Source of the DNA: Thiomicrorhabdus indica
GTDB taxonomy: Bacteria; Pseudomonadota; Gammaproteobacteria; Thiomicrospirales; Thiomicrospiraceae
NCBI RefSeq assembly: GCF_004293625.1
Contig: NZ_CP033040.1
Location: 930,001-994,000, forward strand
Direction of reading: 5' to 3'
DNA: 64,000 nt
Position 1 is the stretch's first letter, and each line of letters begins with the position of its first letter. The notes beneath the pieces are model-generated. The model saw nothing but the letters and a program-made list of their open reading frames with translations, ran no database searches and was not told where the DNA came from. Of this stretch, positions 52,833 to 64,000 are shown piece by piece. A program made the translations under genes and the position numbers.

Positions 52833-53852
<1,020 letters not shown>

Positions 53853-53939
53853 TTTTTAGGGGCTTGTTTTCCTGATTTCTTTGTTGGAAGTTAGCTCGTT
53901 TACTAAATGTAAACGTCGCCAACTCAGAAAAAACGCCAC

Positions 53940-53969
53940 CTAAAAATGAATGTTTGAAAAACCGGCTAT
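53940..53969. repeat. 30-bp direct repeat, copy 1 (downstream of ilvC)
   Basis: Matches 54123-54152 at 27 of 30 positions (core TGAATGTTTGAAAA). This copy overlaps the left arm of the ilvC terminator. Confidence 0.7.
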
Positions 53970-53983
53970 ATGCCGGTTTTTTT
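53957..53983 (+). terminator. terminator after ilvC
   Basis: Stem AAAACCGGC/GCCGGTTTT, short loop, T run; 105 bp after the ilvC stop. Confidence 0.85.
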
Positions 53984-54010
53984 GTTTTAGGTATATAGAA
54001 AAAAGACTGT

Positions 54011-54044
54011 CATTACGAGGGCTCTTATGCCCGTGGCAATCTAA
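54011..54044. repeat. REP-like dispersed-type sequence
   Basis: CATTACGAGG...CCCGTGGCAATCTA pattern, similar to short dispersed sequences of the type CATTGCGAGC...GTGGCAATCT found in many proteobacterial genomes. Only one copy is in the window, so its status as a repeat is from general pattern only. Confidence 0.4.
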
Positions 54045-54047
54045 TTT

Positions 54048-54057
54048 ACCGGCCGGT
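54048..54057. repeat. last ACCGGCCGGT palindrome before the cassette array
   Basis: Exact copy. No further copy is found from here to 64000. Confidence 0.9.
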
Positions 54058-54073
54058 TAGTTTTGTTATCTCG

Positions 54074-54095
54074 TTCTCACGCTCCTGCGTGGGAA
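54074..54095. repeat. small hairpin between ilvC and the cassette array
   Basis: TTCTCACGC and GCGTGGGAA pair with one mismatch around a 4-nt loop; resembles the common CGTTCCCACGC...GCGTGGGAACG dispersed hairpin. The whole 53853-54337 stretch has no gene; it holds the terminator, this hairpin, the REP-like sequence, the palindrome and the two direct repeats. From 54153 to 54337 I see only AT-rich sequence with short repeats of TTGCC and GGCAA, and no integrase gene. Confidence 0.5.
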
Positions 54096-54122
54096 TGAAT
54101 ATTTTTCCCCGAAAAGCGCTCG

Positions 54123-54152
54123 CTAAAATTGAATGTTTGAAAATCCAGCTAT
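54123..54152. repeat. 30-bp direct repeat, copy 2 (left flank of the cassette array)
   Basis: Second copy of the repeat at 53940-53969, 3 mismatches; here the terminator stem is degraded. It may mark a duplication made during insertion. Confidence 0.7.
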
Positions 54153-54337
54153 TTGTATGGAAAACTACAATTTTTTACATTAATATCTTTATTAAATAAG
54201 CCTTGTCAATGACAAGTTTAAATAGGTAATACAAGGTAACTTGCCAAATTGACAGGAAATACATGATAAACAAGCATAATTGCCTGAAAATATTGCCAAT
54301 ATATTAAATAATCGGGCAAATATGCCTGATACTAAAT

Positions 54338-54505
54338 GTTACGAGTGACCGCAAGCGGTCACTCGTAACGGGGTGGCGATAATAGATTTCATTGTTCGAC
54401 TCGCTTGCGCTCCTCATAACAATGCAATCAACCTGACGTGTTTCACCCACAAAAAATTTTCAATTTTTCGTGCGCGAAGCCACGCAGGTTATCGCCACCC
54501 CGTTA
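54338..54505 (+). mobile_element. ORF-less cassette-like unit with attC-like site, copy 1
   Basis: It opens with a perfect 15-bp stem, 2-nt loop hairpin (GTTACGAGTGACCGC, AA, GCGGTCACTCGTAAC; 54338-54369). An attC-like site follows, with 17-bp perfectly complementary ends TAACGGGGTGGCGATAA (54366-54382) and TTATCGCCACCCCGTTA (54489-54505) and an inner pair CATTGTT/AACAATG. Cutting at G/TTA at both ends gives a 164-bp unit, the same as a second copy at 61612. It has no convincing ORF. It could also be a MITE-like element with terminal inverted repeats. Confidence 0.65.
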
Positions 54506-54536
54506 TGCCCCCGTATAGATAAGGAGTACTTGAAGA

Positions 54537-55304
54537 GTGCAGTTCATTCATACCGACCTTGGTCAAAGGAAGCGCGGGGAAATTGTAGAGATTACCCTGA
54601 CAAGTGGTGCTAACGTCCGATTGATGGATAGCTCGAATTTTAATAGCTACAAAAATGGTAAGCGTCATCGCTACACCGGCGGACTCGCCAAGAAATCACC
54701 AGTTCGGCTGCAAATCCCTTCCTCTGGACATTGGCATGTTGCAGTAGATATGCAAGGGCTCAGAGGTAGTACAAGGGCTTCCGTTCGGGTTCTTCCCGGC
54801 GTATTGCCAGATATACAAGAACGTCCGTTAAGTGAAGTTCCAAGCCTTGTTCGAGATAACATTCCACCGTCAACAGAGACTGGCGCGGAGGTTCACGACG
54901 TTTTTATCTCTCATGCATCCGAAGACAAAGATGATTTCGTTCGCCCACTTGCAAACGCTCTTATTAGTGAGGGACTAAATGTATGGTTCGACGAAATGAC
55001 CCTACGCATAGGCGATAGTCTTCGCCAAAAAATAGATAAAGGTCTAGCGAGTAGTCGAGTAGGCCTTGTTGTTTTGTCCCCAGCCTTTATCAGCAAGGGC
55101 TGGACCAACTATGAGCTAGACGGAATTGTTAGCCGAACCGTTTCTGGCGAGCAAATTCTTCTACCGATATGGCACAACATTACAAAACAGCAGGTAATGG
55201 ATTTTAGCCCGTCCATAGCAGATAAAGTGGCGCGCAGTACTGCAACACACACAATTGAAGAAATCGCTACCGAAATAGCGGAATTAATAAGGTCCAAGGC
55301 ATAA
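54537..55304 (+). CDS. DUF1883-TIR domain protein (putative anti-phage NADase)
   Basis: 255 aa. Residues 1-87 match the DUF1883 pattern (MQFIHTDLGQRKRGEIVEI, SGHWHVAVDMQG). Residues about 119-250 form a TIR domain (HDVFISHASEDKDDFV, GLNVWFDEMTLRIGDSL, SRVGLVVLSPAF, WTNYELDGIV with the likely catalytic Glu). Bacterial TIR domains commonly cleave NAD+ when phage infection is sensed. GTG start with AAGGAG 10 bp upstream. Its TAA stop is also the first base triplet of the attC-like site that follows. Function here is inferred. Confidence 0.85.
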   Translation: MQFIHTDLGQRKRGEIVEITLTSGANVRLMDSSNFNSYKNGKRHRYTGGLAKKSPVRLQIPSSGHWHVAVDMQGLRGSTRASVRVLPGVLPDIQERPLSEVPSLVRDNIPPSTETGAEVHDVFISHASEDKDDFVRPLANALISEGLNVWFDEMTLRIGDSLRQKIDKGLASSRVGLVVLSPAFISKGWTNYELDGIVSRTVSGEQILLPIWHNITKQQVMDFSPSIADKVARSTATHTIEEIATEIAELIRSKA

Positions 55305-55363
55305 CAAAGTGCTGCTAGGGACAAAATACGCTGCGCTCCGTTTTGCCCCTGAGTACGGCGTTA
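55302..55363 (+). repeat. attC-like recombination site after the TIR cassette
   Basis: 62 bp from TAACAAAG to GGCGTTA. The inner stem GGGACAAAA/TTTTGCCCC is imperfect, with GCTGCGC in the loop. Its start TAACAAAGNGCTGC is shared with the sites at 59738 and 61553. The expected cut is after G55360. Confidence 0.8.
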
Positions 55364-55484
55364 TACGGCATCGCTCGAGTGTGCGTTTTCTACCGTAAGC
55401 GGGCATCGGTCGAAAAGTAGCAGAAAGAAATAATATTAAATGTAAGTCCCCTTGTCTTTGGTCCGTTTTTTAAGGTCTTGATAC

Positions 55485-57650
55485 ATGAAAATTACTTCCT
55501 TCGCTTTAAAGAATTACCGGCGGCTAGCCGATGTAACCTTAGTGCTTGATGATAAAACAGCGGTTCTTGTAGGTGCTAACAATAGTGGAAAAACGTCTTG
55601 CATTGGTGCTCTACATACATTTCTAAAAAGTCCGGAAAATCTCAAGGTTAGAGATATATCTAAGAAGAATTGGAGGAACATCCAAAATCTGGGTAAAGAA
55701 GTCGAAGTAGAGTTTCCCTCCATCGAGAAAATGCAGGAACTATCCGATGCTCTTATCAGGTTATTGCCTAGTTTAGATATCGAGATAACAGCGGAAGCGA
55801 GTGAGGCATATAAGGTTCGTGACATCCTACCAGACCTAGAGTGGAAAGGTGGTGCTCTATCCGTTCGCATAAATTATGAAGTAATTGATGTCTCCAAATT
55901 ATTTAGTGAGTTTGTTGATACGAGAGTGGTAGTATCCAAGCATCAAGGTGAGGTAAGCCTATGGCCTAAAGATCTCTGTGATTTTTTAGAGAAAGGCCGG
56001 AACTTCAGTAAGTTCATAAAGCAAAAGCACTACGTTTTGAGCAAAGAGGCTGAGCCTAGTTCGAACGAAATTTTACAGCCGCTAAAATCTGAAGCTTTGA
56101 AAAAGTTAATTCGAGTAGACGTTATATCCGAGCAGCGGGGGCTAGGTGCTGAAGATAACGCAGATCAAAAAGGGCCATATTCAGAAAAGCAGCGGCTCAA
56201 CAAGTTACTTCGAGACTATTATGAGCGTATTTTGAACCCAGAAGATTACCCAGAGGCTGACGACCTCAAAGTTTTGGGGCAACAGCAAAAATTAGAAAAT
56301 GACTTCACCAAAAGATTAAACGATCAGTTTGAGGCTCCTTTCGAAGAGTTGAAAAGTATGGGTTATCCTGGTATTGGTGGTAATCCAACTGTTGAGATTT
56401 CCGCGCAAATTAGCGGGACGGATGCGTTGCAAAAATCGTCATCGGTACGATACCGTTTTGATAAAAAAGATGAAGAGTTTCTTCCCGAAAGCTACCTGGG
56501 GCTTGGCTACCAGAATCTCATCTATCTGACTTTTAGGCTTCTAGAATTCCGCGACAAATGGATGCGTGTTGGTAAATCGGCTTCTTCAGGGGACAATGTC
56601 GAAGAGCAGATTGAGCCAATTCACCTGGTCTTACTTGAAGAACCGGAAGTTAATCTTCACGCGCAAGTTCAGCGTGTTTTTGTATCGAAAGCTTACGATA
56701 CTTTGCGGAATCATCCCGATTTGCGCGACAAGAATACCAAAAAAGATAAGTCTGAATACCAGACACAGCTCGTGATTAGCACCCACTCCAGTCATATTAT
56801 TAATGATATTGACTTCAAAAATTTACGTTACTTTCGACGGAATGATGCAAACACGTCGTCCATCGCAATGGACCATACAACAATTGCAAACATGTCAGAG
56901 CTTTTTGCGAATGCGAAAGATGAGCTTTTGTTTGTAAGTAAACACTTGAAGCTCACTCATTGTGATATCTTCTTTGCCGACGGCGTTATATTCGTCGAGG
57001 GGCAAGCAGAGCGTCTTTTGGTACCAGAGTTCATTTCCAATAGCTTCCCGGATTTATCTAATCGGTACATCTCGATGCTCGAGGTGAACGGTGCTCACAC
57101 GCACAAGTACAAAGCGTTAGTCGAGAAGCTTGGGGTCACGACTCTAGTGCTGACGGATCTTGACTCTGTTGATAACAACGGGAAGTCTTGTTTTCCGCAA
57201 AGAAACTCTGATCAAAAGAGCAACAATGATACTTTGAAGATCTGGCATCCACAGAAAGAAACGTTGGATGAGTTAGTAGATTTGCCCAAAACGGAACATA
57301 TGACAACAAGTGAAGGTGCACCGCTTTACGTTGCTTTTCAGAAGCCGACCCAGATTTCTGAGAAGGAGGTCTTAGCCCGAACATTTGAAGATGCTTTGAT
57401 ATTGGCTAATTTTGACCAAGAGTATTTTCAGAAGAAACCCAAACTCAAAACTGCAAAATCGGCCCATGAAGATGATAGTAAGTCGTTGTCAGAGTCACTT
57501 TATGAATATGTGCAAGGTTTAAAAAAAGGCGACTTTGCCTTCGATTGCCTATTCCATCTCGCGGATAAAGAGTCGAATAGCTTCAACCCCCCTGAATACA
57601 TGAGCGATGGCCTTAAATGGCTGGCAGCTCAGCTTTCACCAAAAGAATAG
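55485..57650 (+). CDS. OLD-family ATPase-TOPRIM endonuclease (GajA-like)
   Basis: 721 aa. The ABC-type ATPase has Walker A VGANNSGKTS (about 29-38), a signature-like LGLGYQNLIYL (about 345), Walker B VLLEEPEVNLHAQ (about 381) and ISTHSSHI. A TOPRIM nuclease domain follows, with FVEGQAERLLVPEF (about 500) and VLTDLDSVD (about 555). Class 2 OLD proteins next to a UvrD-like helicase constitute Gabija, in which GajA nicks DNA when nucleotides are depleted by phage. It is longer than the typical ~580 aa GajA, mostly in the C-terminal part after TOPRIM. The 121 bp before it lies within the cassette. It is followed by the helicase gene after 11 bp. Confidence 0.85.
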   Translation: MKITSFALKNYRRLADVTLVLDDKTAVLVGANNSGKTSCIGALHTFLKSPENLKVRDISKKNWRNIQNLGKEVEVEFPSIEKMQELSDALIRLLPSLDIEITAEASEAYKVRDILPDLEWKGGALSVRINYEVIDVSKLFSEFVDTRVVVSKHQGEVSLWPKDLCDFLEKGRNFSKFIKQKHYVLSKEAEPSSNEILQPLKSEALKKLIRVDVISEQRGLGAEDNADQKGPYSEKQRLNKLLRDYYERILNPEDYPEADDLKVLGQQQKLENDFTKRLNDQFEAPFEELKSMGYPGIGGNPTVEISAQISGTDALQKSSSVRYRFDKKDEEFLPESYLGLGYQNLIYLTFRLLEFRDKWMRVGKSASSGDNVEEQIEPIHLVLLEEPEVNLHAQVQRVFVSKAYDTLRNHPDLRDKNTKKDKSEYQTQLVISTHSSHIINDIDFKNLRYFRRNDANTSSIAMDHTTIANMSELFANAKDELLFVSKHLKLTHCDIFFADGVIFVEGQAERLLVPEFISNSFPDLSNRYISMLEVNGAHTHKYKALVEKLGVTTLVLTDLDSVDNNGKSCFPQRNSDQKSNNDTLKIWHPQKETLDELVDLPKTEHMTTSEGAPLYVAFQKPTQISEKEVLARTFEDALILANFDQEYFQKKPKLKTAKSAHEDDSKSLSESLYEYVQGLKKGDFAFDCLFHLADKESNSFNPPEYMSDGLKWLAAQLSPKE

Positions 57651-57661
57651 GGGGGGAAGTT

Positions 57662-59587
57662 ATGTCAGAAGAATTCTACTTGGCTGAAACCAAACCCATA
57701 GATCATGACAGTGATGTTGATGAAGCTATTAAGGGGTGCCTGCGCATAGGGTCAGGAAAAAGCTTTATTACCTTCGCTGGGGCGGGATCAGGCAAAACCT
57801 ACTCTCTAAAAAATGCTCTGGATTTCCTGAAAAATCAACACTCTGACGACTTTTCTCGGCGAGGAAAGCAAATTGCCGTTGTAACCTTTACTAACAACGC
57901 TGCAGATGAAATCAAGGACCGAATCGAGCAAAACCCGATCTTCGCGGTTTCCACGATTCATAGCTTTTGCTGGGATGCAATTGGCGGATTCAATGAGGAC
58001 ATTCGCAAGTGGTACTTGGAAAAAATTCCCACCGATTTAGAAGATCTCAAGGAAAAAGAAGATAAAGGCCGTGCAGGCAAGGCATCCGATGCCCGAAAAA
58101 GGGATATCACCCGCCTGACTAAGAAAATGGAATGGTTAGCGAAACCTCGCTCATTCGATTACGATCCAAACGGCATAAACTCCTCTCCAAATGCCCTTTC
58201 GCACGCGGATGTTTTGAAGATTTTCTCTAATTTATTGACCACCAAACCGATGATGGCGGAAGTCATAATAAATAAATTCCCGTTCATATTCATCGACGAA
58301 AGCCAAGATACTAATAAAGACGTTATTAGTGCATTCTTTGAGCTGCAAAAAGCCAAATCGGATAGAGTTGTTATCGGCCTGTTTGGGGATACGATGCAGC
58401 GTATCTTTGGCGGGGGAGAACCTGAGCTGGGTAAGACTAAGCCCAGTGGTTGGACTACTTTCGACAAGAAAATGAATCATCGATCAGCACGGCGCATCGT
58501 TGGTTTGGGGAATCAAATTCGTAGTGAGGATGATGAACGTAGCCAGTTTGCCCGAGATGGAGCCGCGGAAGGTTATGTTCGGTATTTTTTATTGTCGTAC
58601 GGTGTTTCAGAAAAAGACCAAGTCGAAGAGAAAATTCGTGAGACTATGGCGGAAATTACGGGTGACGCAGACTGGAAAGATACTCAATCCAAAGAAACCG
58701 CTATCTTACTTTTGGAACATAAAATGGCTGGACGTCGACTTGGCTTTGGTGAGCTTTGGGACACGCTTTCAAGATCAGACAAAATTAAAGATCGGATTGC
58801 TGAAGGTGAAAATACCGAACTTAACTTCTTCTCTAGCATTGTTTTTCCTTTGGCTGAGGCGAGCCGGAAGGAAAGACGAGCCGAATTGATGTATATCTTG
58901 AGAGAAAGCAGGTCTCCGCTGTTGGAAGCCATTGCGCTTGATGCAAACAAGGGCGATCCGCTCGCGCTTGCCCGAGCCGCGGAACATGCATTTAGAGATG
59001 TGGTTTCAAATGATAAGGTCAGCTTTCGTGAAGTTTTAGAAGTACTTGCTAAGCACAAGCTACTTAGAATCCCAGAAAAATTGCAGTCGTTTGTGGCGGA
59101 TTTAGAAGAAGCAGAGACTGAATCAGAGTCAGTCCAAACGGGAGCTGGCCCGGAGGGTGACCCAGAACCTAAGGAGCGGGATGATAGCGAAATTGCTGCT
59201 TGGGCTGAAGCCTTGGAGACTGGTTTCTTCCAGATTAAAAACTATAAAAACTACATCGATGAGAACTCAATTTTTCGAACCCATCAAGGCGTGAAGGGTA
59301 ACGAATTCGAGCGTGTAATGGTTGTCATGGATGATGATGAAGCTGGTGGGTTCTTATTTTCCTACGAGCAGTATTTTGGCGCGAAGGAGCTTTCGCAAGC
59401 AAGCAAAAAAAAACGGGATGCAGGTGAAGAAACTGGTTTGGATCGAACCCGACGATTATTTTATGTCACATCTACTCGTGCGAAGAATAGCCTAGCTCAT
59501 GTGATTTATACTTCAGATGTGACTAAAGTAAAGGAAAGTCTTATCAAAAAAAAATTAGCGCGAGAATGTGAAATTATTGAGTTATAA
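57662..59587 (+). CDS. UvrD/Rep-type superfamily 1 helicase (GajB-like)
   Basis: 641 aa. Motif I is FAGAGSGKTYSL (about 38-49), motif Ia VVTFTNNAADEIKDRI, motif II FIFIDESQDTNKD, motif III-like VVIGLFGDTMQRIF, motif V HQGVKGNEFERVMVV and motif VI RRLFYVTSTRAKNSL. The ATG at 57662 follows a G-rich AGGGGGGGAAG; an upstream in-frame ATG overlaps gajA and is less likely. In Gabija, GajB senses DNA ends and activates GajA. It is longer than the typical ~500 aa GajB, mainly through a middle acidic region (about 490-520). The pair occupies one cassette. Confidence 0.85.
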   Translation: MSEEFYLAETKPIDHDSDVDEAIKGCLRIGSGKSFITFAGAGSGKTYSLKNALDFLKNQHSDDFSRRGKQIAVVTFTNNAADEIKDRIEQNPIFAVSTIHSFCWDAIGGFNEDIRKWYLEKIPTDLEDLKEKEDKGRAGKASDARKRDITRLTKKMEWLAKPRSFDYDPNGINSSPNALSHADVLKIFSNLLTTKPMMAEVIINKFPFIFIDESQDTNKDVISAFFELQKAKSDRVVIGLFGDTMQRIFGGGEPELGKTKPSGWTTFDKKMNHRSARRIVGLGNQIRSEDDERSQFARDGAAEGYVRYFLLSYGVSEKDQVEEKIRETMAEITGDADWKDTQSKETAILLLEHKMAGRRLGFGELWDTLSRSDKIKDRIAEGENTELNFFSSIVFPLAEASRKERRAELMYILRESRSPLLEAIALDANKGDPLALARAAEHAFRDVVSNDKVSFREVLEVLAKHKLLRIPEKLQSFVADLEEAETESESVQTGAGPEGDPEPKERDDSEIAAWAEALETGFFQIKNYKNYIDENSIFRTHQGVKGNEFERVMVVMDDDEAGGFLFSYEQYFGAKELSQASKKKRDAGEETGLDRTRRLFYVTSTRAKNSLAHVIYTSDVTKVKESLIKKKLARECEIIEL

Positions 59588-59737
59588 AATTATCGTTGAA
59601 ACTGTATTTAATATTGAGTTTCACACTAAAGAGTCAATAGGAATGAACGTGATCCGAAGAATTATGTTGTTCAGGGGTGTTTTGTGGATGACCGCTTCCG
59701 GCCATGAGGGCAGTGAGAGGCTAGTTCAAGTTCCGTA

Positions 59738-59803
59738 TAACAAAGCGCTGCTGTCGGACAAGTTTTCCGCTACGCTACAAATTTGCCGCAGAGCGCGGCG
59801 TTA
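59738..59803 (+). repeat. attC-like site after the GajAB-like cassette
   Basis: 66 bp from TAACAAAGCGCTGC to GCGGCGTTAGGC; the last 7-bp core GTTAGGC is the only strict GTTRRRY match in the array. The 150 bp between the helicase stop and this site has no convincing gene; a frame from 59643 runs through the site and is rejected. Confidence 0.82.
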
Positions 59804-59846
59804 GGCTTTATTCTTTCCCTATTAACTAATCTCATAAGTGAACAAC

Positions 59847-60584
59847 ATGACTCAATTCGTGAATTACTTGAATTTAAAAGACAGCGAGCTAGATCAATAT
59901 ATTTATAGAATCATTTCGCTAGACAGATTAAATCAATTGTTTAATGAAAAAGTAAATGTGCTTGTTAGTCCTGAGCTTTGGGATGACCCTTTTGAAAACT
60001 TCATTATGAAATCAAATGTAAGGTTTGACGATGGAACTATCGCGAATATTGATTTTAGTGATGATTACTATGGGCAGTGTTGGACTTTACATAAAGCATC
60101 TGATGCGATGTGGAGAATATATTCAAACGATAAAAAAAGTGTAAGAATTCGCACAACTGTCCGTAAGCTCGCTGAAAGTTTAAGCTCTACTCTCGGAGAA
60201 TTGAAAAACGTCCAGTCTTACATAGGTAAAGTTGAGTATCTTCCAAATAAAGGACTGATGGCGTTTGCAAACACCGTATTAACAGGTCTACCACAGCCAA
60301 CCAGTTTTGCCAAAACACTTCTTGTAAAAAGGCCAGCGTTTAGACATGAAAAAGAAGTTAGATTAATTTACATGGATAAAGATAAAAAAATAGATTCTAA
60401 GCTATTCAGTTATTCCATCGATCCTCACGAGTTAGTTGATCAAATTATGATTGATCCAAGGCTGACTAAAAGTGAAGCTAATGAAGTCAAAAAACAGATT
60501 ATTTCTTCAACCAAATTTCAAGGCACAATAAAGAGGTCTCTTCTTTATGATCTTCCAGAAGGGATGGTATTCAATTTTAGATAA
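59847..60584 (+). CDS. DUF2971 domain protein
   Basis: 245 aa. The DUF2971 pattern is present: LVSPELWDDPFENFI near the N-terminus, YGQCWTLHKASDAMWRIY in the middle and FRHEKEVRLIY toward the end. These proteins are common in accessory islands and have no established biochemical role; several occur in defence contexts. An ATG at 59847 is chosen; a GTG at 59838 is possible, and neither has a good ribosome binding site. It is a single-gene cassette with its own attC-like site 3 bp after the stop. Confidence 0.75.
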   Translation: MTQFVNYLNLKDSELDQYIYRIISLDRLNQLFNEKVNVLVSPELWDDPFENFIMKSNVRFDDGTIANIDFSDDYYGQCWTLHKASDAMWRIYSNDKKSVRIRTTVRKLAESLSSTLGELKNVQSYIGKVEYLPNKGLMAFANTVLTGLPQPTSFAKTLLVKRPAFRHEKEVRLIYMDKDKKIDSKLFSYSIDPHELVDQIMIDPRLTKSEANEVKKQIISSTKFQGTIKRSLLYDLPEGMVFNFR

Positions 60585-60587
60585 GCC

Positions 60588-60642
60588 TAACAATTCACTC
60601 AACCCGACCGCGCTAACGCGTGGCTGGTTAGCTTAAACGTTA
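60588..60642 (+). repeat. attC-like site after the DUF2971 cassette
   Basis: 55 bp, TAACAATTCACTCAACCC at the start and TTAGCTTAAACGTTA at the end, with CGCGCTAACGCG between. The same site type recurs at 62358 with 8 bp deleted. Confidence 0.8.
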
Positions 60643-60661
60643 AGGCACTCAAGGAGTATTG

Positions 60662-61555
60662 ATGTCACTACTAAGAGAGATACAAGATGCGGCAATCGAT
60701 TCCAAAACGGATCTTGCTAGCTTATTGCGTAAATGCAAGGTTTTAGCAGCTCGGCTCGGAAGCGAAGAGTTCAAGTCCTGGGTAGACTCTGAACTAAGTG
60801 GCTACAAGAATGTTGAGGACTTACCGGAATATAGAGTTTTGCATGTAACATCAAAAGGTCATTTTTCTGGTGCATTTGGCTCTGGTATGAATAACGCGGA
60901 CATCCCCATGTTTTGTTTGCCAGAAAAATTTCGTGAAACCATGTCACGATCTAACATGATGGAGCCAGTTGCTTCTATTGAAGCCCTGGTAAGTAAATCA
61001 GACGGTGGAACTGCTCAAGAACCTTGGAACCCTGATTTTGTTGCAATGGTAGGTCAGAAAATCTATCAAGGCATGAACTGCATGCAAGCTTGGAAAGTAA
61101 TTCCCATTACTGCGTTAATCGCCGCGCTAGATGAAATTAGAAATAGAATTTTGAATTTTGTCTTGGAAATAGAAGCGCAAGATCCTGATGCTGGCGAGGC
61201 TGCTCTGAATTCTTCTCCAGTACCTCCAGAAAAAGTAAATCAAATATTTAATACCTATATATCAGGCAGCGTTCAGAATGTTGCGACTGGTAGTCATAGC
61301 TTTGAGCAGCATGCTACAAACAACGATATAAATGCGGAATTATTCTCTCAGCTATTGGAGGCATTGCAGTCCGTTAACCAGCCAGAGATTACAGTGCCTC
61401 TATGTAACAATGTCGAAGAAATGCGCTCTAGTCAGGGCACTCAAAGCTTTAAAGAACACTATCAGCATTTTATGTCTTTGCTATCAAATCACATGACAGT
61501 GTTGGGTCCCGTCGTGGCCCCATTTCTTCCGGCTTTAGCGGCAATCGTGCCTTAA
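60662..61555 (+). CDS. AbiTii-domain protein
   Basis: 297 aa. The N-terminal region (LLREIQDAAIDSKTDLASLLRKCKVLAARLGSEEFKSWVDSEL, here recognisable by LLRKCKVLAARLGS and WVDSELSGY, then LPEYR) matches the AbiTii domain of abortive infection proteins. The middle and C-terminal parts are not recognised; the last 25 residues are hydrophobic (VLGPVVAPFLPALAAIVP) and may insert in a membrane. AAGGAG is 5 bp before the ATG. The stop codon opens the following attC-like site. Confidence 0.75.
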   Translation: MSLLREIQDAAIDSKTDLASLLRKCKVLAARLGSEEFKSWVDSELSGYKNVEDLPEYRVLHVTSKGHFSGAFGSGMNNADIPMFCLPEKFRETMSRSNMMEPVASIEALVSKSDGGTAQEPWNPDFVAMVGQKIYQGMNCMQAWKVIPITALIAALDEIRNRILNFVLEIEAQDPDAGEAALNSSPVPPEKVNQIFNTYISGSVQNVATGSHSFEQHATNNDINAELFSQLLEALQSVNQPEITVPLCNNVEEMRSSQGTQSFKEHYQHFMSLLSNHMTVLGPVVAPFLPALAAIVP

Positions 61556-61615
61556 CAAAGAGCTGCAGCGGATCAATTTTCGCTGCGCTCAAATTGCCCG
61601 CTGAGCTGGGCGTTA
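61553..61615 (+). repeat. attC-like site after the AbiTii cassette
   Basis: 63 bp from TAACAAAGAGCTGC to CTGGGCGTTA. The inner segment ATCAATTTTCGCTGCGCTC pairs partly with AAATTG. Its end is shared with the second ORF-less unit. Confidence 0.8.
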
Positions 61616-61778
61616 CGAGCGACCGCAAGCGGTCGCCCGTAACGGGGTGGCGCTAATAGATTTCATTGTTCGACTCGCTTGCGCTCCTCGTAACAATGCA
61701 ATCAACTTGACGCCTTTCAATCCCCAAAAATTAAAGTTTTTAGGTCGCGAAACCACGCAGGTTATCGCTACCCCGTTA
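61612..61778 (+). mobile_element. ORF-less cassette-like unit with attC-like site, copy 2
   Basis: Clearly the same unit as 54338-54505: hairpin GTTACGAGCGACCGC/GCGGTCGCCCGTAAC (one mismatch), ends TAACGGGGTGGCGCTAA and TTATCGCTACCCCGTTA, and a shared middle around ATAGATTTCATTGTTCGACT. The region from about 61705 to 61745 has diverged. The G/TTA-to-G/TTA unit is 163 bp, against 164 bp for copy 1. Confidence 0.65.
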
Positions 61779-61793
61779 TAGCATTGGTAAATT

Positions 61794-62360
61794 ATGACAA
61801 ATGAAGAGCTAGATATTTTTTTAAGAACCTTTTACGAAATAAAAGAACAATCAGTTTCTGGAAGTTATGGTTTTGATGATAATTGGAATATTTTTATAAA
61901 AAAGATATTAGCTTTATCTCCAAAATCTTACGGAACAAAAATTCAAAATAGAGTCATTTTTCAAAATGATTTGAAACATGTGAAAGCAAATGAAGATAAA
62001 GGTGATTTCAGAAAAAACAGCAAATATTATGAAATCAAAACATCTATATTGACGGTAACAAATAAAGCAGCAAACATAACTGGCGTACGCCCCTGGCAAC
62101 CCATTGATGGGTATTACATTCTTATTATAGATGCTAGAGATTTCGAAAATATTTGCACATATAATTTTCATTTAACTAAAGAGCAGATGAGTGAGGAATT
62201 AAAATGTCTAAAAGCTTTACCTCTTAATGGGACTAAAAGGGCAAACGAAGGCAACATAAACTTGCCTCAGAGATTTCAACTATCTTTAAATGATGGGAAT
62301 TTCAAAAGATGGGTTCAACGTTACTCATTCGATACAGATGAAGTTATTAAAAAGTTATAA
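61794..62360 (+). CDS. probable PD-(D/E)XK-fold restriction-endonuclease-like protein
   Basis: 188 aa, not a family I can name. The segment GDFRKNSKYYEIKTSIL has an Asp, then 8 residues, then EIK followed by TS, as in the catalytic core of many type II restriction enzymes. Downstream YYILIIDARDF is a beta strand of the kind that follows it. No methyltransferase is near, so it is either an orphan nuclease, part of a defence module or a different function. The sequence is AT-richer than neighbouring cassettes. The stop opens the next attC-like site. Confidence 0.55.
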   Translation: MTNEELDIFLRTFYEIKEQSVSGSYGFDDNWNIFIKKILALSPKSYGTKIQNRVIFQNDLKHVKANEDKGDFRKNSKYYEIKTSILTVTNKAANITGVRPWQPIDGYYILIIDARDFENICTYNFHLTKEQMSEELKCLKALPLNGTKRANEGNINLPQRFQLSLNDGNFKRWVQRYSFDTDEVIKKL

Positions 62361-62404
62361 CAATTCACTCAACCCGACCGCGCTGCCGGTTAGCTTAAAC
62401 GTTA
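62358..62404 (+). repeat. attC-like site, shortened form
   Basis: 47 bp, identical to the site at 60588-60642 except for an 8-bp deletion with small changes in the centre (CGCGCTGCCGG instead of CGCGCTAACGCGTGGCTGG). The terminal parts are unchanged. Confidence 0.75.
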
Positions 62405-62835
62405 TGAATATCGAGATCGTAGAAAAAACAGATCACCTTAAGCTGATAGAGATATGGGAGGCATCGGTCAGGGCAACCCACGACTTTTTAGCTGAAGCTG
62501 ATCTACAGGAGTTAAAGACGTTAATTCTAGAACAGTATTTTGACGCTGTTGATTTAAGGTGCGTTAAAAATGGCAACGGTGAAATACAGGGATTTTGCGG
62601 CGTACATGACGGTAGTATTGAAATGCTGTTCATCTCACCTGATACGCGCGGAAAAGGCATCGGTGTCATGTTAGTGTCAAATGCTATCAATGAGCAGGGA
62701 GCATCAAAGGTCGACGTTAATGAACAGAATGAGCAGGCGCTAGGTTTTTATCAGCATATTGGTTTTAAGGTTACAGGACGCTCTCCAGTCGATGGGCAGG
62801 GTAAAGCCTATCCGTTGCTGCACATGGCGTTATAA
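62404..62835 (+). CDS. GNAT-family N-acetyltransferase
   Basis: 143 aa. The acetyl-CoA motif is MLFISPDTRGKGIGVMLVSNAI, preceded by GFCGVHDGSIE and followed by VNEQNEQALGFYQHIGFKVTGR. It resembles small YjaB/PhnO-like acetyltransferases; the substrate is unknown. The ATG at 62404 overlaps the last A of the preceding attC-like site's GTTA, so the start lies at the recombination junction and has no ribosome binding site of its own. Confidence 0.88.
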   Translation: MNIEIVEKTDHLKLIEIWEASVRATHDFLAEADLQELKTLILEQYFDAVDLRCVKNGNGEIQGFCGVHDGSIEMLFISPDTRGKGIGVMLVSNAINEQGASKVDVNEQNEQALGFYQHIGFKVTGRSPVDGQGKAYPLLHMAL

Positions 62836-62840
62836 AAATT

Positions 62841-62900
62841 TAACAAGCCAGCCACGGCGACGTTTTTTTCGTTGCGGCTTCTCCTTCACTACAAAGCCGC
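62841..62900 (+). repeat. broken attC-like site at the right end of the array
   Basis: Starts TAACAAGCCAGCCACGGCGACG, shortened here to TAACAAGCCAGCC, as the other sites do, but no matching GTTA end follows within 120 bp. A stem GCGGCTT/AAGCCGC follows. It looks like a truncated site marking the array boundary. The remaining 62901-63079 has no recognisable gene; an imperfect hairpin CCTCA/TGAGG lies near 63000. Confidence 0.5.
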
Positions 62901-63079
62901 TGAGTGAAACCTATCTACGGGATAAATCATGAACCACAAAATTCTCGATAAAAAAGCTAAGAAGAGGTGACGAGTCTTTTCACGCCTGTTTTCCCCTCAT
63001 CTGAGGAGAAGGAAAAAAGAAGGCTAATTAGTAACCTTGCCTCAGAGCTATCTTCAAGAGCCGATAGAAGTACTACTTC

Positions 63080-64000
63080 ATGGAGATGATCCTCATTATT
63101 TTTCTGCTCCTCTTGCTGACCGGCATACTCGTTCTTGCCATTAGGTTAGTCAAGTGGATTTTAGTAAATAAAATAAGATCATGGATATGTTTAGGCATTG
63201 TGCTTGTCGGTTCGGTAGGATTGGGTATTCATCATTTCTTTTTCAAACAGATGATGCTCATCCAATCTGAAGTCTATCCTAATCTTTACTTAGTCAAGTA
63301 TTATGAAAATGATGAAAATCAATTCCATTCATTAATCAGAGAAAAAATAAAAAATCACCTGAGTCATCAGATTCCCGATGGTAAAAAACTGAGCTACCAA
63401 AAAGACAACGTCATTTTCTTTTATGCGTATTACAAGGCATTTCCTATCAGTGTGTTTCAAGATGAAGGGACCGCATATTTCTTAGAAAATGAAGAAGACC
63501 TCGGTGGATTAGTGACTGAAGAGTTGGGGATGTATTTCAGATACAAGTTAGCAGAGTTTTATTATGCTCCCTGCGAATCTGAGCCAACACTTTATTGTGG
63601 TGAAATCAGTTATTTCAACGACGGTAACTTGGTTAAGTTTGAGCGTCTTACTAATCTTCACGTATATCAAAGCGTTGAAAAACCAATAGATACTGAGACT
63701 CTCATAGATCAACTTCAGTTGGCTTATTCAACAAAAAATGAAGAGCAGTTTCTAAATCAATTTCCGTCAGACTTTCAGCAGTTTGTCACTCTTTTTGGCT
63801 GGGATGAGCAAGCTGATCGTCCTAATAAACTATATAACGTGAGTGATGCGTATATTACTTATTTCTTCACGTTAATCGATAATGAAAGGTATCGAGAATT
63901 TGACGATAAGATAATTAGCATTGCTAAAGGTGGCAGATGGCAAGCGGACGCCGTCAATTATTTTCAAAATAAAGCATTAGTTTATATCAGGGATAAGCGT
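63080..64000 (+). CDS. membrane-anchored protein of unknown function, cut by window edge
   Basis: An open frame of 307 codons runs to the window end with no stop. It starts MEMILIIFLLLLLTGILVL, a first transmembrane helix, then a basic loop (KWILVNKIRSW) and a second helix (ICLGIVLVGSVGLGIHHFF). The remainder is soluble and rich in F, Y, D and E (for example FLNQFPSDFQQFVTLFGWDE and LYNVSDAYITYFFTL), consistent with a periplasmic or cytoplasmic domain on a two-helix anchor. The ATG at 63080 has only a weak AGAAG upstream; ATG 63086 is an alternative. No family recognised. Confidence 0.7.
   Translation, partial: MEMILIIFLLLLLTGILVLAIRLVKWILVNKIRSWICLGIVLVGSVGLGIHHFFFKQMMLIQSEVYPNLYLVKYYENDENQFHSLIREKIKNHLSHQIPDGKKLSYQKDNVIFFYAYYKAFPISVFQDEGTAYFLENEEDLGGLVTEELGMYFRYKLAEFYYAPCESEPTLYCGEISYFNDGNLVKFERLTNLHVYQSVEKPIDTETLIDQLQLAYSTKNEEQFLNQFPSDFQQFVTLFGWDEQADRPNKLYNVSDAYITYFFTLIDNERYREFDDKIISIAKGGRWQADAVNYFQNKALVYIRDKR

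Follow-up and report, generated by a model that had tools for sequence, protein, structure and literature searches.

Integron cassettes that carry no gene are usually read as promoters or as decayed genes. Cassettes can insert at genomic attG sites, and MITEs are short, non-coding and non-autonomous, carry inverted repeats and occur in several copies. As far as the accessible parts of the sources go, published gene-less cassettes carry promoters (PMC11014356, PMC6557892), and attG is named in the accessible part of a third source (PMC12901181). Those of the Vibrionaceae superintegrons, in the portion of PMC11014356 at hand, contain an attC but no gene, may affect genes located behind them and measure 491–666 bp, some of them holding degenerated genes; the terms hairpin, palindrom and inverted do not occur in the main text of that paper. 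ORF-less cassettes also occur in oral Treponema and in Xanthomonas (sRNA-Xcc1), and one of these is in first position, where such cassettes are few in the available portion of PMC6557892 (1/42 and 1/5).

Here we describe a unit of 164 bp from the window, by which we mean the whole 64,000-nucleotide stretch analysed (bases 930001–994000 of the 2.83-Mb single-contig genome of Thiomicrorhabdus indica). Like the Vibrionaceae cassettes it has an attC, lacks a gene and may influence the genes behind it, and like those of Treponema and Xanthomonas it is ORF-less and can stand in first position. It differs from the former in its length, in consisting of an attC and an inverted copy of it, in being multi-copy and in lying often at attI, and from the latter in the inverted-attC layout, which the accessible part of PMC6557892 does not describe. 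Open-licence titles and abstract openings, a scope outside which most subscription papers fall, yielded no description of a cassette of attC plus inverted copy or of Thiomicrorhabdus integrons. Judged from sequence comparison, this layout, found described nowhere in the open-licence literature searched, is present in two families of units and has probably been spread by an integrase acting in trans. At a probability of roughly 0.58, we favour the explanation that the unit is a gene-less cassette behaving as a non-autonomous mobile element.

Boundaries and genomic setting of the unit

Copy 1 of the unit occupies 54339–54502 on the + strand, 164 bp from the crossover of one core site (G^TT at G54338) to that of the next (G^TT at G54502). 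Its longest stop-free stretch in six frames is 51 codons, in agreement with an earlier note on this DNA that had seen no gene in it, and we count it as having no ORF. Both ends are G^TT core sites in line with the neighbouring attI or attC, and because of these boundaries and neighbours we have little doubt that the unit is a gene-less integron cassette. The same note had described a perfect 15-bp hairpin and an attC-like site with perfectly complementary 17-bp ends. Both pairings are present: the hairpin arms, 54338–54352 and 54355–54369, pair at 15/15 positions around a loop of AA, and the 17-bp ends are 54366–54382 and 54489–54505. An attC is present too, but the one that resembles the attC of gene cassettes is confined to the 3' part (R'' at 54415–54420 to R' at G54502) and does not extend over the full 140 nt. 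The hairpin and the structure of the 17-bp ends overlap by four bases (54366–54369) and therefore compete, which is an addition to the earlier note.

A second copy had likewise been reported, and we find it at 61612–61779 with 88% identity and a spacing of 7274 bp. From crossover to crossover it measures 163 bp (61613–61775, + strand), the attC upstream of it belongs to the AbiTii cassette, and its hairpin has one mismatch. Copy 1 does stand first in its array as proposed, directly behind an attI-like site that has no adjoining integrase gene (54230–54341, + strand, left limit approximate). This site ends in the 27-mer GGCAAATATGCCTGATACTAAATGTTA at 54315–54341, with the crossover after G54338, and the stretch before the 27-mer resembles, by eye, the attI beside intI of relatives. 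The 27-mer GGCAANNNTGCCTTATACTAAATGTTA with at most three mismatches occurs at 53 sites in 27/60 genomes of the bacterial family, up to four per genome (reversed-pattern control: 0 sites in 60 genomes), and an integrase match at E ≤ 1e-40 was obtained in 17/60; many of the sites must therefore be without a neighbouring integrase.

Three of the 53 sites have no crossover G and one lies at a contig edge. Among the 49 that were read, the unit is the first cassette at 11, one of them with a deletion across both palindrome centres described below (h1 and h2), and is not the first at the 38 others; these labels come from a home-made attC caller that is insensitive, having found one attC in the window array. 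Two of the 17 integrase loci end at a contig edge behind attI, and 5/15 of the others start with a unit, four with family A, of which one is truncated where its contig ends, and one with family B. Of 30 ilvC loci scanned, those of the window genome and T. heinhorstiae alone have the attI-like 27-mer behind the gene. At this site the unit of the window genome is nearest to a T. marina unit (93%), and that of T. heinhorstiae is of the other subtype, across a supported split (96/94) in a tree of the 13 family-A units that has four open forks and from which only supported splits were used. With different subtypes at the same ilvC attI, insertion or replacement there was therefore independent. A 44-bp repeat (82%) also lies behind ilvC in the window, at 53929–53972 and 54112–54155, and repeats follow ilvC in some relatives as well.

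The first gene behind copy 1 encodes a DUF1883-TIR protein (54537–55304, + strand) and is followed on the same strand by a Gabija-like pair at 55485–59587 (GajA 55485–57650, PADLOC 5e-242; GajB 57662–59587, 7.4e-228), a DUF2971 protein that is the PADLOC candidate PDC-S31 (59838–60584) and an AbiTii-domain protein (60659–61555). This part of the array, 54537–61555, is rich in phage-defence genes. Behind copy 2, also on the + strand, come a gene for a protein that neither PADLOC nor Pfam matched at E ≤ 0.001 (61794–62360) and a GNAT acetyltransferase cassette gene (62404–62835, start codon placed by eye; Pfam query 62290–62832).

Both window copies thus lie directly upstream of a gene, as would suit a cassette that, first at attI, gives a promoter or an mRNA-stabilising 5' hairpin to the genes behind it. 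Most of the gene-less Vibrio cassettes tested show promoter activity, as far as the available text of PMC11014356 reports, and the hairpin h1, which starts at the crossover, would sit close to the 5' end of any transcript initiated in attI. Consensus scans found no sigma-70-like site in either copy; this is not decisive, and the accessible text of PMC11014356 states that promoters of this kind escape in silico identification. However, a promoter or leader would account for h1 and not for the three other body elements introduced below (X, A and h2), and the difference in size from the Vibrio cassettes speaks against it as well. We regard this function as unlikely to explain the unit.

Layout of the body and its attC

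The attC of the unit (54415–54508, + strand) comprises R'' at 54415–54420, L'' at 54429–54438, L' at 54483–54491 and R' from G54502, and is of a type that is also found behind genes (at L004, L034 and L058). The body in front of it holds four elements, none with an assigned strand. Palindrome centre 1, h1 (54338–54369), is the 15-bp hairpin with the AA loop and begins at the crossover G. X (54366–54382) repeats the R' arm of the same cassette in inverted orientation and pairs at 17/17 positions with 54489–54505. A (54385–54396) likewise repeats the R''-side spacer in inverted orientation; it pairs with 54418–54429 with one mismatch and co-varies with this partner. Palindrome centre 2, h2 (54397–54415), lies immediately 5' of R'' and corresponds to h1 in inverted, diverged form.

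Closing the unit into a circle at G^TT joins the R' arm to h1 without a break, TTATCGCCACCCCG|TTACGAGTGACCGC-AA-GCGGTCACTCGTAACGGGGTGGCGATAA, and the two hairpins of the earlier note appear as one inverted repeat. A palindrome spanning the junction is present in 14/14 units examined, with arms of 19–27 bp and 0–3 mismatches; thirteen of these units come from a signature scan, and L008_9882, in which X' is degenerate, was added by hand. In loci that partly overlap and total 1.03 Mb, a scan of both strands gave the signature at 13 distinct places; three mononucleotide shuffles, scanned on one strand, gave none. In the second half of the body, A pairs with the R''-side of the attC around h2, in the same pattern as X'-h1-X. 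As we read the alignments, the body of about 75 nt, taken backwards, would run h1-like, R''-side, R'-side, h1, and would represent the attC inverted, minus its inner part (L'', terminal structure and L'). Two units of T. heinhorstiae (L020 and L031) have identical 5' halves but differ in the terminal structure of the attC, a pattern that resembles an exchange of the attC arm.

Co-variation was scored on 12 of the 13 members of family A, the short copy being omitted. Cells changed on both sides number 17, all in h1, against 6.1 ± 2.0 after shuffling; 94.9% of h1 cells are paired, and two-sided changes fall in 5/15 h1 pairs, a count that 85/500 shuffles reach. In X-X', 92.9% of cells are paired and two-sided changes number 0. 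The match of h1 to the h2 of its own unit averages 32.4, compared with 24.6 to the h2 of other units (0/10000 permutations), with the own h2 being strictly the best match in only 5/14 units. Similarly, A scores 16.6 against its own partner A', 12.0 against others and 8.8 ± 2.1 when shuffled (0/10000), in a test of 17 rows of which three are truncated copies. Relatedness of the copies inflates all these tests, and gene conversion could yield the same pattern. The shared layout in the unrelated L096 unit is not easily explained by kinship, unless the homology is too old to detect.

A co-varying hairpin would also be expected of a transcribed, functional RNA, and the part of PMC6557892 available names sRNA-Xcc1 as an ORF-less sRNA cassette, so we considered whether the hairpins are parts of a non-coding RNA. 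Against this, Rfam gave nothing over the gathering score in 53800–64000, its one sub-threshold match lying outside the unit, and a scan found no terminator-like site on the + strand inside the unit, one bottom-strand match listed there being h1 itself. Moreover, the two halves of the inverted repeat meet across the junction of the cassette, and no array transcript would have them in this order. A non-coding RNA cassette is therefore a very improbable reading.

Copies, families and movement

The window genome holds four copies; the further two, at C1:1649957–1650118 and C1:1650772–1650879 (short), lie near its integrase gene. By BLAST (E ≤ 0.001) family A is present in 13/62 genomes of the bacterial family and in 2/7 genera, some matches being partial or attC only, and the order-level search covered the same 62 genomes. 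Symmetric copies are present in nine genomes, and truncated ones at L025, L038, L057 and L060. Family B was first found beside a divergent intI in G036, from a neighbouring genus, where three copies at 100% lie within one array, one directly beside intI; it has matches in 4/60 genomes of the bacterial family, one merely 32 bases long. A family-A query finds nothing in G036 and a family-B query nothing in G000, the window genome, and family B, as the alignments have it, is the same layout as family A with no detectable sequence similarity. The neighbouring genus labelled g3 is presumably Hydrogenovibrio.

Outside these genomes, the strict signature was not found beyond G036 in 59 array-side regions (from the class-level integrase matches listed) plus the G036 array, 603,840 bases in which many regions are short contig ends. 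The unit had no match in plasmid, phage and E. coli collections, nor had one exact pattern in IMG/VR, all of which may omit records of or near the window genome. Among 13 pattern matches in GTDB contigs, nine are Thiomicrorhabdus units; L044, L045, L047 and L053 are likely chance matches in unrelated sequence and were set aside.

Identical copies at different positions show what we read as recent movement, and an unsystematic look turned up no copy in the opposite orientation to its array. These distributions bear on the view that the unit is neutral debris, in which a template switch at an attC hairpin gave an inverted partial dimer that is unselected and whose symmetry is kept only by gene conversion. 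Two palindrome centres and one arc deleted in its inner part are what a fold-back remnant is expected to leave, and truncated copies do exist. Such debris would, however, hardly be expected to share its layout between two families without detectable similarity, to remain symmetric in nine genomes or to have moved recently, and we think this origin improbable.

In G042 a single family-B unit lies outside any array, at G^TT, between genes that by eye are ion-channel-like and LysR-type-regulator-like. G043 provides the empty site: the joined G042 flanks align with it over 260/260 positions at 79.6%, and only GTTA, the core itself, is repeated around the insertion; three other relatives (L246–L248) gave no alignment across the site. 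GTTA flanks occur at every integron joint, and a 4-bp duplication of the same letters is by sequence indistinguishable from one. The case looks like insertion at attG, differing in that the inserted cassette is without a gene.

The earlier note had also raised the possibility of a MITE imitating attC, for which copies with target-site duplications outside any cassette context would speak. The one copy found outside an array is the lone family-B unit in G042, and no duplication beyond GTTA was seen around it. The likeness to MITEs in behaviour is apt, the unit being short, non-coding, non-autonomous and multi-copy with inverted repeats, but identity with them is weakly contradicted: its ends are integron core sites, and a complete attC, of the type found behind genes, lies inside it. 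Full-length copies of the window family with a readable left flank follow, by eye, attI-like or attC sites (L023 behind a degenerate one), and the lack of matches in the plasmid, phage, E. coli and IMG/VR searches above counts against a MITE-type transposon as well. Because a GTTA duplication and an integron joint look alike, the odds are somewhat raised for a transposon with target GTTA that happens to enter integron arrays and of which the out-of-array copy would be an instance; even so, we consider it the least probable of the readings weighed here.

Returning to the gene-less cassette as a non-autonomous mobile element, an integron integrase acting in trans would excise and insert the unit by recombination between the bottom strand of the unit's 3' attC and a G^TT target, in many cases attI. 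That integrase drives the spread of the unit is probable in our estimation. In the window genome the integrase gene lies at C1:1658195–1659049 (L008 18195–19049), beside the main array. Compared by eye with the 326-aa IntI of T. marina, its product has an insertion and is without the segment TTMIYTH, which we take to hold the catalytic tyrosine. With that segment absent the unit is probably immobile in the window strain, and movement here would therefore need an integrase from elsewhere. Arrays in two genera (L008 5358–6301 and L235 249–1082) lie near the same pair of genes, which look rhodanese-like and PgpA-like by eye, and this points to a hot spot common to both.

The lone unit of G042 provides the stop codon of the ion-channel-like chromosomal gene, and in G043 a truncated unit lies directly behind a gene. 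It is conceivable, though quite doubtful, that the units are mobile attC donors, consisting of recombination-site DNA only, that enter G^TT sites also behind chromosomal genes and make these genes into cassettes.

Folding and a possible role of the inverted copy

The earlier note had named attC folding of the bottom strand as a check. With a DNA fold, the bottom strand of copy 1 reaches −57.4 kcal/mol compared with −23.7 ± 3.1 in 200 shuffles (z −10.8), and copy 2 has a z of −5.4. Taken alone, the 3' attC is more stable on the bottom than on the top strand in 14/14 units, with P(R''-R') on the bottom strand of 0.09–0.98 (DNA parameters; 0.09 in copy 2); among seven gene-cassette attC controls the bottom strand is more stable in 4/7 and P is 0.03–0.88. 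A wobble-direction test of the folding strand did not favour the bottom (h1, 4 kinds vs 2; X, 0 vs 4, against the bottom). Within the whole unit, the canonical attC pairing has a P of 0.00–0.01 in linear and 0.00 in circular form across the 14 units, and forcing it costs 2.9–19.4 kcal/mol linear and 4.8–26.1 circular. Such predicted in-unit values would be at odds with a frequently moving element, unless folding is kinetic or assisted.

The function that we infer for the inverted copy is masking: once the cassette is inserted, the copy would cover the attC, and the cassette would tend to remain where it landed. In V. cholerae, as far as the accessible part of PMC2727003 reports, a stem that has no extrahelical bases and whose central spacer is fully paired is a poor substrate for recombination, and the X-X' stem of the unit is of that kind. 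Shuffled bodies of equal composition, however, give mean P values of 0.01–0.61, with P < 0.2 in 604/840 shuffles and a mean ≤ 0.10 in 7/14 units, and when X alone is shuffled, a clear rise in P is confined to c1 (0.17) and L024 (0.52). Since most of the shuffled bodies hide the site as well, we put masking forward tentatively, as a possibility with the odds somewhat against it. Conversely, the palindrome might help extrusion from duplex DNA and raise insertion.

Two families of units consist of a recombination site plus an inverted partial copy of it, kept with co-variation and often placed at attI. This suggests that integrons have non-autonomous passengers of their own, or self-locking cassettes. 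The units offer a concrete substrate for work on the control of attC folding and on the origin of the link between gene and attC; if they do act as attC donors, they would provide one answer to how genes first gain an attC.
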